Assembly: GCA_002706365.1 (NCBI GenBank)
Contig: PALM01000022.1
Coordinates: 1-64,000 of the forward strand
From: Flavobacteriales bacterium
GTDB lineage: Bacteria > Bacteroidota > Bacteroidia > Flavobacteriales_E > Vicingaceae
Direction of reading: 5' to 3'
DNA: 64,000 nucleotides
Under the pieces are notes generated by a model that made no database searches, was not told where the DNA came from, and saw nothing but the letters and a program-made list of their open reading frames with translations. Of this stretch, positions 1 to 55,723 are shown in pieces. Positions within the stretch are counted from its first letter, which is position 1. Every line of letters starts with the position of its first letter. The position numbers and the translations under genes were made by a program.

Positions 1-1
1 A

Positions 2-748
2 GAAGAGCAGAAAGTAAAGCAAGCAGACATTGAGGAGAAGTCGCTCAACTCCCTAGTGAGCTATGTCGACAAAACCGCTGAGCAGATGATTGTTGAAACA
101 CTCAGCGAATTACTTCCAGAAGCGGGATTTATAGCTGAAGAAGGTACTTCCGACAAAGTAGGTGATCAATACAATTGGATCATTGATCCTTTAGATGGAA
201 CTACCAATTTCTTGCATGGATTACCTGTTTATGCTGTTTCAATTGCTTTGCAATTTCAAGACGAGGACGAGGACGAAGACGGTGATATTGTGCTTGGTGT
301 AGTTTACGAGGTCAATCGGGATGAGTGTTTCTACTCTTGGAAAGGTGGCAAAGCTTTTCTGAACAATGAGGAAATCAGTGTGAGTAAGGAATCAAATGTC
401 AAAGACTCCTTATTCGCCACCGGATTTCCTTACTACGACTATGAACGAATAGACTCTTATTTTGAAGTCTTGAAACATTTAGCTCAGAATAGTCGGGGAG
501 TTAGACGCATGGGCTCTGCTGCAGTAGATCTTGCCTATGTAGCTTGCGGCAGATTTGGAGCCTTTTTCGAATATAGCCTCCACCCTTGGGATGTAGCCGC
601 CGGCGCATTCATCGTTCAACAGGCCGGCGGAGAGGTCTTCGACTTCAAAGGAGGAGATAATTGGTTGCATGGGAAGGAGATCTTGGCTACGAATGGGCGT
701 TTGGATGCACAAATGAAAGATTTGGTTGGTAGAATTAAGAGTACCTAG
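2..748 (+). CDS. Inositol monophosphatase family protein (5' truncated by window edge)
   Basis: Mg2+-dependent phosphatase of the IMPase/SuhB fold, expected to remove phosphate from inositol monophosphate or a similar small substrate in the cytoplasm. The reading frame is open from base 2 with no stop, so the GTG at 56 is internal and the true start lies left of the window. Family motif 1 (WIIDPLDGTTNF, about 174-215) and motif 2 (HPWDVAAGA, about 583-610) carry the metal-binding aspartates, and GFIAEEGT supplies the metal-binding Glu pair. Oddity: an in-frame GACGAG hexamer repeat at 260-283 encodes an acidic DEDEDED stretch in what should be a short beta-hairpin loop. The stop codon lies inside a 9-bp direct repeat (739-756). 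Family sure; substrate not. Confidence 0.93.
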   Translation, partial: EEQKVKQADIEEKSLNSLVSYVDKTAEQMIVETLSELLPEAGFIAEEGTSDKVGDQYNWIIDPLDGTTNFLHGLPVYAVSIALQFQDEDEDEDGDIVLGVVYEVNRDECFYSWKGGKAFLNNEEISVSKESNVKDSLFATGFPYYDYERIDSYFEVLKHLAQNSRGVRRMGSAAVDLAYVACGRFGAFFEYSLHPWDVAAGAFIVQQAGGEVFDFKGGDNWLHGKEILATNGRLDAQMKDLVGRIKST

Positions 749-1008: not shown

Positions 1009-1785
1009 TCAGCACCCTATTATCCCAAAGAAAAGCACCAACTCCTGTTCTACTTTATTTCCTTTTGCATCTTCTGCCGGTTTCCAGTCGCCAGGTAAAG
1101 TTCCCATTAGCTCTAATACTCTTTCATCAAATGCCTCATCTCTAGATGAATTCCACAACTTGAGATCTTTCAATTTCCCATCGGTTCCTACCGTAAGATA
1201 CAATCTACCAGGTCCCAATCTATCTTCATCTAATTGATCGATCTCATCTTGGCTATTAGTCCGTAAATAATCGAACAAAGCTCCAAGTCCTAGCGAATAT
1301 TCAGCCTGTACTTCAGGTATTAAAGTAAAATGTGGAGTATAGTTGTGATATCCATTTGCTCGTATTTCTACTACAAAATTTGAAGACAACGGTAAATTGT
1401 TCAGTTGACTTAATTGCTCTTTGCTCAGCATTTCTCCATAATTAGAAATACCCTCGCTATAGTCTTTATCATTGCTGATCAACTTTAAAGTGGTTTGATC
1501 AAATGAGTTAACATCATTCAAATGCTCTTCTTTTAAAAAAGTTCTAGCTGAAAAGGCTGTGATTAATTGAGATCGCTTGATAGGATTGAATCTGGGTGAA
1601 AGTCCCTGAAAGATATGTGCTATCCTTTTCTCTTCTTTAATTGAAGCTTGAAAAGGTGTAAGCATGATAAAATCATCTTGCTTCTTGCAGCTCATCTTTT
1701 GATCAGTTGCATAGTACCCAACACCAATCTGCGTGCTCGCGAGAAACAAAAACATAGTACTCAGTAATAAGATGCTAATTTTCAT
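1009..1785 (-). CDS. Secreted/periplasmic protein with TonB C-terminal-like domain
   Basis: Unrecognised 258-residue protein. The N terminus (residues 1-18, MKISILLLSTMFLFLAST) is a signal peptide or signal anchor. About residues 190-254 resemble the C-terminal domain of TonB-type energy transducers: a GRLYLTVGTDGKLKDLKLWNS strand, a helix with DEAFDERVLELMGTLP, then WKPAEDAKGNKV and a final hydrophobic strand. The usual TonB proline-rich spacer is missing. It is divergent from the membrane-anchored winged-helix regulator at 1918, 132 bp away, which suggests a shared control region and perhaps a functional pair. It could equally be a stray TonB_C-fold lipoprotein-like protein. Domain call moderate; role unknown. 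Confidence 0.7.
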   Translation of the reverse strand: MKISILLLSTMFLFLASTQIGVGYYATDQKMSCKKQDDFIMLTPFQASIKEEKRIAHIFQGLSPRFNPIKRSQLITAFSARTFLKEEHLNDVNSFDQTTLKLISNDKDYSEGISNYGEMLSKEQLSQLNNLPLSSNFVVEIRANGYHNYTPHFTLIPEVQAEYSLGLGALFDYLRTNSQDEIDQLDEDRLGPGRLYLTVGTDGKLKDLKLWNSSRDEAFDERVLELMGTLPGDWKPAEDAKGNKVEQELVLFFGIIGC

Positions 1786-1905
1786 ATCATTGAATTTAAA
1801 GATTATGAGCTCAAATCTATCTATAGACTCAATCTCAAAGCGTTATAAGAATGTAAAATGATGTAAATCTTCTGTAAAATGACAGTATGCTATCATAGAT
1901 TCAAA

Positions 1906-1913
1906 TAGATTTG
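1906..1913 (+). promoter_or_regulatory. -7 promoter box TAGATTTG, apparently leaderless
   Basis: Exact match to the Bacteroidota -7 consensus TAnnTTTG. Only four bases separate its last G from the ATG at 1918, so transcription would start at or within a base or so of the start codon. Confidence 0.55.
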
Positions 1914-1917
1914 TAAT

Positions 1918-2790
1918 ATGCCCAAATTGAGGATATACCTTTTACTTCTATCATTCTTCACAATCAATTGCTTTGCAAACCAAGCATTTGAGAATGGCTC
2001 TTTGATCAATGCGATCAGAGGAGTTGGCGATCAATTGCTATTGCAGTCGGCCGATAGTACTTCAAGGGTTTTGCCTGTTTTGCAAACTGAAGATGAGTTT
2101 CTATTGAGTTTTGAAGTTGAATTAGAAATTGTTCCTGATAGCCTAGTATCCATTGTAAAAAGTCAGTTTTCACGAATAGAATTACGTGATAACTATTTAG
2201 TAGAAGTCATAAGTTGTGATAGCAATATGGTAGTCTACAGCTACCTAAAACTGCAAGATGCGAGTCGCGATATGTTAGCCTGCAAAATGAGGACACTACC
2301 AAAAGCCTGCTATCAAATAAAATTTAGTCTTTCAGAGCCAGAATACAAAGCTCATTTGAAGACAGAAGATGAAGCTATAGTTGATAATATTGGCTTTAAT
2401 AAGATGTGGTTGATCCTAATATTCATTGCAGTTCTTCTGGGATCTATCCTGATCTATTTCTTAAGAAAGAAAACACATTCAGACTCCACAGATTCGGCAA
2501 TCCGATTGGGAAAATTCCATTTTAAAGCTGCAGATGCCACTTTGATATTGAAAGAGGAGCGAATCGACTTAAGCATAAAGGAAGCTGATCTCTTGCAATT
2601 ACTGCATGAATCACTAAATCAAACGGTGGAGAGAGATGTCATTCTAAAAGAAGTGTGGGGAGATGAAGGAGATTATGTAGGAAGGACATTAGATGTTTTC
2701 ATATCCAAACTGCGCAAGAAACTCTCTGCAGACCCCGAAGTCAAGATCATGAATGTGAGAGGTGTTGGGTATAGGTTGGTGGTTGGGTAG
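1918..2790 (+). CDS. Membrane-anchored winged-helix transcriptional regulator
   Basis: A 290-residue one-component regulator with an unusual order: signal peptide (1-20), a periplasmic domain (about 21-160) with three cysteines (100, 122, 131), one transmembrane helix (163-182) followed by RKK, and a C-terminal OmpR/PhoB-type winged helix (about 196-290). The last domain shows the family's recognition-helix and wing pattern (RTLDVFISKLRKKLS, then VRGVGYRL). CadC/ToxR proteins have the DNA-binding domain N-terminal; here it is C-terminal, a layout known in Bacteroidota. The domain order and topology imply sensing outside the inner membrane and DNA binding inside. The likely partner is the divergent TonB-C-like protein. 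Target genes cannot be read. The start is supported by the signal peptide and the -7 box. Confidence 0.85.
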   Translation: MPKLRIYLLLLSFFTINCFANQAFENGSLINAIRGVGDQLLLQSADSTSRVLPVLQTEDEFLLSFEVELEIVPDSLVSIVKSQFSRIELRDNYLVEVISCDSNMVVYSYLKLQDASRDMLACKMRTLPKACYQIKFSLSEPEYKAHLKTEDEAIVDNIGFNKMWLILIFIAVLLGSILIYFLRKKTHSDSTDSAIRLGKFHFKAADATLILKEERIDLSIKEADLLQLLHESLNQTVERDVILKEVWGDEGDYVGRTLDVFISKLRKKLSADPEVKIMNVRGVGYRLVVG

Positions 2791-2846: not shown

Positions 2847-3130
2847 GTTGAGGATCTGCGTACATCTGCAAGATTGGAGGGAGAGTTGAACGAGATTAGA
2901 TTTTAAGAATTATTGACCTTATTTGCTGTGCCGCAAAGGCTCGCAAAGGCGCTTCACTCTCACAAAGTGTCACAAAGCTCTATAAATTCTCTCCTTGAGA
3001 ACCTTAGGGTAACAACTAAAATGAGATTAGTCAATTAGGATTGAAAGCTCTCAAAGAACTCTGTGCCTTCTCTGTGTAGCTATGAGCGCAGCGATTGGCC
3101 TCAGTGTCCAAAAAAAGGCCAATTACAGAA
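2847..3130. other. Gene-free intergenic stretch with degenerate repeats and a hairpin
   Basis: No credible gene between the regulator and the minus-strand gene at 3133. It contains GCAAAGG/CACAAAG-type repeats (about 2932-2980) spaced 10-11 bp apart, CTGTGCCTT/CTCTGTG words (about 3058-3080), and an inverted repeat ATTGGCC ... GGCCAAT at 3094-3123 with a 16-base A-rich loop. The inverted repeat is the only structure here that could act as a transcript end for the gene at 3133. Confidence 0.5.
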
Positions 3131-3151
3131 TTTCAGATTTCAGATCTATCC
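3131..3151 (-). repeat. Heptamer repeat (TTTCAGA) holding the stop codon of the small membrane protein
   Basis: TTTCAGA, TTTCAGA, TCTATCC in phase. The mRNA-sense unit is TCTGAAA, whose TGA serves as the stop codon at 3133-3135. The same unit appears behind accC at 3442-3475 and at 12385-12440. Confidence 0.6.
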
Positions 3152-3375
3152 TTCACTCTTTCCATTGAAGAATCATCGTAAAAGCTATCCTCAAATTTCT
3201 TCTCACTGGCAATTCCGTGTTTCAATACCACATACACCATATATGGCACTAAAAGCTGTCCCATCATGAATAAGATGAACATCAGGTCGTAAGATGGATT
3301 GAAAGCGGATAAAGCCGCAAAAAAGAAAATAAATACGGTTACTCCTAGAACTACGTAACTAACTGCTTGATTCAT
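3133..3375 (-). CDS. Small membrane protein, 80 residues
   Basis: Unrecognised. Two hydrophobic segments (about residues 6-24 and 31-50) are followed by a charged C-terminal tail (EKKFEDSFYDDSSMERVKDRSEI). It stands alone between accC, which is also on the minus strand 100 bp upstream, and the repeat-rich gap. The C terminus is encoded inside a heptamer repeat: the last codons GATAGATCTGAAATCTGA overlap AAATCTG units at 3131-3151, so the stop is the TGA of one repeat unit. No promoter box was found. Real gene likely from its hydrophobic pattern and conserved-looking composition, but no function is proposed. Confidence 0.6.
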   Translation of the reverse strand: MNQAVSYVVLGVTVFIFFFAALSAFNPSYDLMFILFMMGQLLVPYMVYVVLKHGIASEKKFEDSFYDDSSMERVKDRSEI

Positions 3376-3414
3376 GGTTATATAACAAGCAGTTGTGCGA
3401 TATGTTTGTGTTCC

Positions 3415-3475
3415 AGAACCTAGAATCTAGAGCCTAGATATATTTCAGATTTCTGATCTCAGATTTCAGATTTGC
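3415..3475 (-). repeat. Two heptamer arrays directly behind accC
   Basis: AGAACCT, AGAATCT and AGAGCCT (3415-3435, CTAG every 7 bp), then about five units of ATTTCAG/ATTTCTG/ATCTCAG type (3442-3475). The array ends 2 bp from the accC stop codon (3478-3480). The first unit type recurs at 13156, 53443 and 53627; the second at 3131 and 12385. Confidence 0.75.
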
Positions 3476-3477
3476 AT

Positions 3478-4962
3478 TTACCTTCTATTCTTTTTCCAAG
3501 CAGAAACGCCATTACCTTGCTGCTCTCCTACTAGCTCTGCTTTGCCTTTTTGCGACTTGAGAATATTAACGCCTAACCAGGCTGCGATCTTTTCTTCATC
3601 AGGGCGACTGTCTTTCAGTACATCAGGAGTAAAATGAAGTTTCACAAAGTGGGTATCGAAGTTTCCGCTTACGAAGGCTTCATGGTCAAGTGCGAATTTG
3701 CAGAAGGATAAAGTAGTTTCTACCCCATCGATCTGATATTCGTCAATTGCTCTGATCATTCGCTTGCGAGCCTCTTCCCTATCCTTTCCATAGGTAACGA
3801 GCTTAGCGATCATTGGATCATAATGGATAGGAATGTTCATTCCTTCTTCAAATCCATCATCTACTCTAATTCCCGGTCCTTGTGGACGAACATAGGTGTT
3901 CAGTCTGCCAATATCCGGAAGGAAATCATTGGTTGGATCTTCAGCATACACTCTAACTTCAATTGAATGTCCCTGTATGCTCAAGTCCTCTTGCCCAAAA
4001 CTCAATTTCTCTCCTCTGGCAATCTTGATCTGTTCAGCCACTAGATCAATACCCGTGATCTGTTCAGTTACTGGGTGCTCAACTTGCAAACGGGTATTCA
4101 TTTCAAGGAAATAGAAATTGTGCTTCTCATCAAGCAAAAACTCTACAGTTCCAGCCCCCACATAATTACATGCTTGAGCCACACGCACAGCTGCTTCACC
4201 CATTTCTTTTCTTAGCTCAGGAGTTAGCACAGCTGAAGGAGCTTCTTCAATTACTTTTTGGTGTCTTCTTTGAATAGAACATTCTCTTTCAAAGAGGTAT
4301 ACCGTATTGCCATGAGTATCGGCAAGTATCTGTATTTCTATATGTCGTGGAGATCCCACATAACGCTCAATGAACACAGAACCATCACCAAAAGCAGAAA
4401 CAGCTTCAGATACAGCTCTATCCATTTGGTCTCTGAAGTCCTTTTCCTTCTCCACAATTCTCATTCCTTTACCACCACCACCTGCAGATGCTTTCACAAG
4501 AATTGGGTAACCAATTTCTGTGGCGATCTTTTCAGCTTCATCAATATCAGTCACCGCTTCATCAGTACCAGGCACTAAGGGAATGTTGTAATCCTTAACA
4601 GCAGCTTTAGCAGCTAGCTTTGAACCCATTACCTCCATCGCTTCAGGTGAAGGTCCGATCAAGGTTAGTCCTGCATCGCTCACTTTTCTTGCAAAATCCG
4701 CATTTTCAGATAAAAATCCATAGCCCGGATGGATCCCTTCAGCTCCGGTTTTCTTTGCCACTTCAATGATCTTCTCCCCTTTCAAATAAGATTGATTTGA
4801 TGGAGCTGGTCCGATCAAGATCGCTTCATCGGCAAATCTGACAAAGAGTGCATTGCGATCGGCTTCTGAATATACCGCTACTGTAGCTATTCCCATTTCC
4901 TTAGCCGTACGCATGATTCGCAAGGCAATTTCTCCTCTGTTGGCAATCAGGATTTTCTTCAT
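3478..4962 (-). CDS. accC: Biotin carboxylase subunit of acetyl-CoA (or acyl-CoA) carboxylase
   Basis: ATP- and bicarbonate-dependent carboxylation of biotin on a carrier protein, the first half-reaction of malonyl-CoA formation in the cytoplasm. At 494 residues it is somewhat longer than the typical 445-450 of AccC. Landmarks in order: N-terminal biotin-carboxylase fold (MKKILIANRGEIA), HPGYGFLSEN (78-87), the ATP-grasp glycine loop GGGGKGM (161-167), FIERYV, and the catalytic EMNTRLQVEHPVTE. No biotin carrier or carboxyltransferase gene is beside it, so the partner cannot be told from context; it could serve a propionyl-CoA-type complex. The extra C-terminal tail (KGKAELVGEQQGNGVSAWKK) is not part of the known fold. 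Confidence 0.93.
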   Translation of the reverse strand: MKKILIANRGEIALRIMRTAKEMGIATVAVYSEADRNALFVRFADEAILIGPAPSNQSYLKGEKIIEVAKKTGAEGIHPGYGFLSENADFARKVSDAGLTLIGPSPEAMEVMGSKLAAKAAVKDYNIPLVPGTDEAVTDIDEAEKIATEIGYPILVKASAGGGGKGMRIVEKEKDFRDQMDRAVSEAVSAFGDGSVFIERYVGSPRHIEIQILADTHGNTVYLFERECSIQRRHQKVIEEAPSAVLTPELRKEMGEAAVRVAQACNYVGAGTVEFLLDEKHNFYFLEMNTRLQVEHPVTEQITGIDLVAEQIKIARGEKLSFGQEDLSIQGHSIEVRVYAEDPTNDFLPDIGRLNTYVRPQGPGIRVDDGFEEGMNIPIHYDPMIAKLVTYGKDREEARKRMIRAIDEYQIDGVETTLSFCKFALDHEAFVSGNFDTHFVKLHFTPDVLKDSRPDEEKIAAWLGVNILKSQKGKAELVGEQQGNGVSAWKKNRR

Positions 4963-55174: not shown

Positions 55175-55723
55175 ATGAAACGACTGCTTAGTATAATATC
55201 GCTTTTTTTACTTCTTGTAAATGTTGTAAAGGCCCAAGAGGAAAGTAAAGAAGAGATCAATTGGCTTAGTTTTGAAGAAGCTATTGAGCTCAATAAGAAG
55301 GAAAAGAAAAAGATCCTTGTTGATGTCTATACAGATTGGTGTGGTTGGTGTAAAAAGATGGATCGCACAACTTATAGTCATCCTGAAATCGTGGAATACA
55401 TCAACAAAAACTACTATGCAGTTAAGTTGAATGCAGAACGAAAGGATACTGTAAAACTTGGAAGTCAGATCTTCGTGAATGAAAATCCAGAATCTAGACG
55501 CTCTCCTCATCAATTGGCGGTAAGTCTTCTAAATGGCAAGATGGGTTACCCATCAACGGTATTTCTTGATGAGAATGTAGAACTTCTAAACCCTCCTATT
55601 TCCGGCTATCTTAGCGCTTCTAGCATTGAACCTATCCTACACTTCTTCGGCGATAATGTGTACAGCAAAAAAGAGATGAGTTGGCAGGAATTTCAAGCTC
55701 AATTCAAGGGTAAAGTGAATTAA
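55175..55723 (+). CDS. Periplasmic thioredoxin-like protein (DUF255/thiol-disulfide type)
   Basis: A 182-residue protein with signal peptide (MKRLLSIISLFLLLVNVVKAQ) and a thioredoxin fold with active-site CGWC (in WCGWCKKMD, about 52-60). The cis-Pro segment is GYPSTVFLDEN. Expected in the periplasm as a reductase or thiol-disulfide protein. It follows the hotdog gene by 4 bp. Confidence 0.9.
   Translation: MKRLLSIISLFLLLVNVVKAQEESKEEINWLSFEEAIELNKKEKKKILVDVYTDWCGWCKKMDRTTYSHPEIVEYINKNYYAVKLNAERKDTVKLGSQIFVNENPESRRSPHQLAVSLLNGKMGYPSTVFLDENVELLNPPISGYLSASSIEPILHFFGDNVYSKKEMSWQEFQAQFKGKVN

Follow-up and report, generated by a model that had tools for sequence, protein, structure and literature searches.

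The regulator P0001 and its homologues are linked to a conserved operator composed of three, sometimes four, TGTAAA half-sites at helically phased distances from -7 promoter boxes. From sequence comparisons we consider it likely that P0001, tied to this operator, is a transcription regulator that spans the membrane once and has no kinase, and that it controls its own gene together with divergent or distant envelope genes; this estimate applies to the explanation as a whole. The divergently transcribed TonB-C-like protein P0002 is best read as a target, because the operator is also found in front of other envelope families and of TonB-C-like genes remote from the regulator. The locus lies within the window, i.e. 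the whole 64,000-nucleotide stretch of DNA that was analysed, and its features are listed in Table 1.

Table 1. Coordinates of the P0001/P0002 locus in the window
Feature	Position	Strand	Remarks
Regulator gene P0001	1918-2790	+	290 aa ORF, translation
P0001 signal peptide (predicted)	residues about 1-20		hydrophobic N-terminus
P0001 periplasmic RprX-type sensor	residues about 21-158		~135 residues
P0001 single TM helix	residues about 161-183		hydropathy
P0001 cytoplasmic RprY/PhoB-type winged helix	residues 214-287		Pfam Trans_reg_C, E 3e-20
TonB-C-like gene P0002	1009-1785	-	258 aa ORF, translation
P0002 divergent TonB_C domain	about residues 160-250		C-terminal GC conserved
Putative operator TGTAAA-N4-TGTAAA-N5-TGTAAA	1852-1878	+	between P0001 and P0002
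Half-sites TGTAAA	1852-1857, 1862-1867, 1873-1878	+	starts 10 and 11 bp apart
-7 box TAGATTTG (TAnnTTTG) of regulator gene	1906..1913	+	4 nt before ATG
-7 box TAGATTTG of TonB-C-like gene	1812..1819	-	32 bp from operator core

The regulator and its sensor

A preliminary description of this DNA had proposed a divergent pair in which the regulator's signal peptide is followed by a three-cysteine periplasmic domain that one helix connects to a PhoB-type winged helix. Both ORFs and this architecture were borne out by the sequence and by Pfam. Hydropathy peaks at about residues 160-184 and the peak is followed by RKK; the cysteines are residues 100, 122 and 131, plus one within the signal peptide. 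The Pfam scan returned Trans_reg_C and a LacY match far under its cut-off, and found neither a receiver domain nor a histidine kinase domain in P0001. A DNA-binding domain and a TM helix are present in one chain, as in transmembrane transcription regulators (TTRs). By eye, the orthologues L066, L067, L069, L070 and L203 have lipoprotein-like N-termini, and this supports an N-out topology. Single-sequence structure prediction gave unusable models (mean pLDDT of 40.3 for P0001 and 32.6 for P0002), and comparison of PDB sequences with the periplasmic profile (A4) yielded no match better than E 0.11.

Full-length homologues of the regulator (E below 1e-49) were found in 21 of 60 genomes, its own included, and a profile of the periplasmic sensor had one match in each of 45 of the 295 class-sampled genomes. 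Removal of G059 (a kinase), G237 (ORF filter) and 10 genomes already counted left 33 regulators from the class sample, which were aligned with the 21 to give a set of 54.

The sensor of the family matched full-length RprX sensors with a probability of 96.0% over 89 columns, while 50 shuffles reached at most 3.0% and long-sensor relatives of RprX 0.4%; a smaller sensor profile of 21 rows gave 78.9%. An early comparison with truncated kinases (94.6% with L208, 55.3% without it) was replaced by the one with full-length sensors. Among NCBIfam models the winged helix matched RprY best, at 90.7 bits versus a whole-protein cut-off of 370, a shortfall explained by the receiver that P0001 lacks. A winged-helix tree, built from few columns, placed the regulators with RprY-type and related response regulators and apart from three outgroup rows. 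The regulators did not form one clade, and 15 of the 54 branched with response regulators. The joining of sensor and winged helix is thus something that we infer, be it by one event or more and in either direction.

With a sensor related by homology to RprX kinases and a DNA-binding domain related likewise to RprY, the P0001 family looks like a one-component version of RprX/RprY, minus kinase and receiver, in which sensor and DNA-binding domain reside in one chain. The aligned part of the sensor includes a cysteine aligned with C100, whereas the second half, containing C122, R125 and C131, lies outside it. L208 (G059, 2993-4267, minus strand) encodes a histidine kinase with a regulator-like sensor and lies beside an RprY-like response regulator gene. 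According to PMC6032018, P. gingivalis has lost RprX.

Three sensor residues, R34, C122 and R125, are invariant in all 54 regulators, and C100 and C131 are present in 48 and 49, respectively. C131 is lost in five regulators from five families, all of which also lack C100, and L059 lacks C100 only. This joint loss points to a C100-C131 disulfide with C122 unpaired. Redox or thiol sensing by C122 beside this disulfide would be one use of the arrangement; C122 could just as well have a structural role. A more far-reaching picture, which combines such sensing with an RprX sensor joined to an RprY DNA-binding domain, an exchangeable envelope regulon reached via TGTAAA arrays and feedback from the TonB-C-like protein, is tentative and, taken in all its parts, rather unlikely.

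TGTAAA repeats and promoter geometry

The 27-base operator pattern occurs without mismatch only once in the draft genome from which the window comes (G000, 3.02 Mb), between P0001 and P0002. Just one other match was found within 3 mismatches; it has 2 mismatches, and a YGGWYCPDN lipoprotein gene follows 64 bp downstream of it (G000:C1). The reversed control pattern gave 1 match within 3 mismatches. The window also has a TGTAAA-N3-TGTAAA pair at position 55216, where a 182-aa ORF begins whose product by eye contains a thioredoxin-like motif; this pair was judged to be a chance occurrence.

The upstream regions of the regulators have TGTAAA half-sites in common, with starts about 10-11 bp apart. 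An exact TGTAAW pair was present upstream of 41 of the 54 (19/21 near ones and 22/33 others), and 48 had a pair once 1 mismatch was allowed, compared to 0.00 and 3.85 per 54 shuffled upstream regions; near-identical loci (L060, L174 and L175) and double cores (L052, L056 and L061) inflate some of the counts in this analysis. Six regulators (L054, L193, L195, L201, L206 and L207) had no pair within 1 mismatch upstream; L054 has a repeat pair further up its operon. The sole pair of L204 is distant and reversed. Regulators with the recognition helix SLDT (L195, L200 and L201) have TGTCAA repeats, identified by eye in L195 and L201, whereas other variants (TLDV, SLDM and so on) have TGTAAA wherever repeats were found. 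These data are suggestive of an SLDT helix accompanying TGTCAA instead of TGTAAA.

The 60 genomes, own included, contain 19 perfect 27-base sites, located at regulators (14), stand-alone TonB-C-like genes (2), a YGGWYCPDN gene (1) and serine hydrolases (2). Each of the 24 sites with at most 1 mismatch is either at a regulator or closely precedes a gene from one of a few envelope families, namely TonB-C-like, YGGWYCPDN, YceI, serine hydrolase and propeller proteins. Allowing up to 2 mismatches gave 59 sites versus 23 for the reversed control; 35 of the 59 carry 2 mismatches, a noisy set of which few were examined.

The class sample of 295 genomes yielded 28 sites within 1 mismatch, in 24 genomes, versus 1 for the reversed control. 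The regulator family was present in 21 of these 24 genomes compared to 45 of 295 overall (Fisher p 8e-17, shared ancestry ignored), and 24 of the 45 genomes with the sensor family had no 27-base site within 1 mismatch. Sixteen sites are at regulators. Eight are at genes for other envelope proteins, two of which belong to a further secreted family (cluster 6) and one of which is a 195-residue lipoprotein that by eye resembles a small secreted family found next to some regulators. The remaining four are in regulator-less genomes and were taken as chance: those in G229 and G138 lie within long ORFs, one of the two in G113 is intergenic, and the second G113 site is L173.

TAnnTTTG is the -7 consensus of Bacteroides. 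We searched for this box on both sides of 59 core sites, up to a distance of 90 bp. The partner side had 28 boxes, of which 25 lay at an offset of 31 or 32. The regulator side had 33, which fell into groups at offsets 36-39 (20 boxes), 47-50 (10 boxes) and 26-29 (3 boxes), i.e. in steps of about one helical turn. Shuffled flanks gave 3.44 boxes on the partner side, 4.32 on the regulator side, and 0.10 at offset 31 or 32. Only 3 of 14 YGGWYCPDN loci had a partner-side match. The position of the P0001 box relative to the ATG suggests that the regulator transcript is probably leaderless.

The same geometry bears on the sign of regulation. If the operator occluded both promoters, with envelope signals releasing the block, half-sites would be expected near both -7 boxes, as is the case. 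However, at offsets of 36-39 about 26 bp separate the end of the nearest half-site from the regulator's -7 box downstream, which stays uncovered, and a half-site upstream of, not over, the -7 box is a geometry more usual for PhoB-type activation. Repression is thus a possibility that we lean against. P0001 more likely acts as an activator than as a repressor, because in the commonest arrangement the promoter-proximal half-site sits where the -33 element would be. In the pho box, PhoB half-sites are likewise direct, in tandem and about 10-11 bp apart upstream of the promoter. The P0001 system shares this layout and the type of winged helix, but differs in its TGTAAA half-site, in being membrane-bound and in lacking a receiver domain.

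The TonB-C-like protein and other partner genes

P0002 begins with a hydrophobic stretch, which may be either a cleaved signal or an anchor. An uncharacterised region follows, and then a divergent TonB_C domain, which scored 18.8 bits in Pfam, below the cut-off of 24.6. The TonB C-terminal fold assigned earlier was nevertheless recovered by profile-profile comparison: a family profile of nine members, none of them a true TonB, matched a TonB_C alignment with a probability of 97.2% over 88 columns, this alignment being small (four different domains from the same genome and one from G034). The highest value was 3.8% among 30 column shuffles and 0.1% among three unrelated alignments. TonB_C was detected at E <= 0.01 in seven of the nine members, and the Pfam cut-off was passed only by L073 (TonB_C) and by L060 and L075 (TonB_2).

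A first TonB-C profile (A1), which matched HasB at E 2e-4, was discarded as a real TonB (L076) was among its members. With the profile rebuilt without L076 (A5), HasB matched at no better than E 0.11 and was outranked by a ribosomal protein (0.017), and the TonB-C homology of P0002 hence rests on the Pfam scan of the members and the profile-profile test. From its sequence we take P0002 to be a secreted protein with a TonB C-terminal domain. It shares this domain with TonB energy transducers but has an extra region of roughly 130 residues before it and, as had been stated previously, lacks the proline-rich spacer, which the best TonB of the same genome contains. A tandem of three TonB-C-like genes, with an operator-like site upstream of the first, is present in L250 (G187:C256, 20614-22997).

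Conservation of the pair had been proposed as a check, and co-occurrence was found. A TonB-C-like gene adjoins the regulator in 14 of the 54 cases, and a fifteenth (L189) came from a separate TonB-C-like search; as adjacent homologues occur in other genomes, the pairing of P0001 with P0002 is not due to chance. A YGGWYCPDN lipoprotein gene takes this place in 12 of the 54, and the remaining neighbours are other genes, among them those of a propeller lipoprotein and the small secreted family; some loci, such as L066 and L184, stop too close to a contig edge for a neighbour to be assigned. In the class sample, TonB-C-like matches at E <= 2e-52 occurred in 14 of the 295 genomes, all 14 with the regulator family, compared to 1 of the next 10 genomes (E 5e-51 to 1e-31), the threshold having been chosen after the list was seen and the profile built from regulator-bearing genomes. 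At E <= 1e-10 the family was present in 19 of 59 genomes, and many of the weak matches are probably ordinary TonB. YGGWYCPDN matches occurred in 17 class genomes, 13 of which have the regulator family (p 7e-9, shared ancestry ignored).

With the model already formulated, we scanned the upstream regions of stand-alone TonB-C-like or YGGWYCPDN genes (18 stretches) with a matrix from 17 regulator-side sites, using 60 shuffles of each as control; G268:C161, at a contig edge, was excluded, as were YGGWYCPDN pieces from G143, G259 and G292. In regulator-bearing genomes the best site outscored every shuffle at 6 of 7 loci, versus 0 of 11 in regulator-less genomes (p 4e-4, shared ancestry ignored). 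The one miss, L263, has two exact half-sites. L262, a YGGWYCPDN gene in G086 where no regulator was found, has two near-exact half-sites and did not beat its shuffles. The YGGWYCPDN gene of L113 (4808-5827) keeps operator-like repeats in G021, in which no regulator was detected; unlike G021, G026 has a regulator beside its YGGWYCPDN copy.

The preliminary description had called a periplasmic relay from the envelope to transcription conceivable, given that TonB-C domains bind receptor plugs. A link from the envelope to transcription at this locus is, by sequence, likely, but the idea of the TonB-C protein as an input from receptor plugs found no support. In a rival reading, this protein would bind the P0001 periplasmic domain in the manner of ToxS and ToxR, and would be needed for sensing or relay receptor state. 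All 14 genomes with the strongest TonB-C-like matches do have the regulator, and in G018 both genes are in one apparent operon. Nevertheless, as many as 40 of the 54 regulators had no such neighbour, the regulator family was absent from most genomes with matches at E <= 1e-10, the operator is present at stand-alone TonB-C-like genes, as expected for targets, and the P0001 sensor resembles that of a kinase. A co-component role is therefore unlikely, and we abandoned the relay because the operator persists across lineages in which the partner gene changes. We favor the view that the TonB-C-like protein is a regulon product, swapped for other envelope proteins in other lineages, which may feed back on the regulator.

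Proposed mode of action and related systems

DNA binding by P0001, the sign of regulation, the signal and the feedback are aspects that we infer from the comparisons above. An envelope signal would change the periplasmic domain, with its putative C100-C131 disulfide and invariant C122 and R125, and the changed domain would favor two or more winged helices side by side on the half-sites. In this model the intact protein binds DNA at the membrane. Alternatively, signal-triggered cleavage could free the winged helix; proteolysis of single-pass regulators such as TcpP is described in the literature, and we regard this route as quite unlikely for P0001. That P0001 and P0002 are unrelated neighbours with a chance repeat between them is extremely improbable: many orthologues have other neighbours, but operator conservation, spacing, the controls and co-occurrence contradict this explanation.

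ToxR and CadC have the winged helix first, followed by the TM helix and the periplasmic domain. Like these one-component regulators, P0001 has a single TM helix, a PhoB-type winged helix and a periplasmic sensor, but the order is reversed, with signal peptide and sensor first and the winged helix after the TM helix instead of at the N-terminus. ToxR-like systems can have a dedicated periplasmic co-component (ToxS, VtrC); here, a TonB-C-like neighbour was seen at 14 of 54 regulators. Unlike OmpR/PhoB response regulators, P0001 is without an N-terminal receiver domain. A search of PMC open-licence texts found no paper on the P0001 family; membrane transcription regulators are reported to be enriched in Bacteroidota (PMC10269533). 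The family represents a widespread regulator with a candidate operator, a predicted regulon, a kinase-related sensor and three positions suited to mutagenesis, and a case in which a two-component system and a one-component regulator share sensor and output domains.

A search of the genome contigs with P0001 alone gave one locus, a winged-helix match. Two stretches, G024:C45:150323-150448 (inside L055) and G003:C6:7950-8081 (inside L080), are 67-68% identical to the winged helix over residues ~246-289 and contain an internal stop codon; they are possible remnants of regulator genes.
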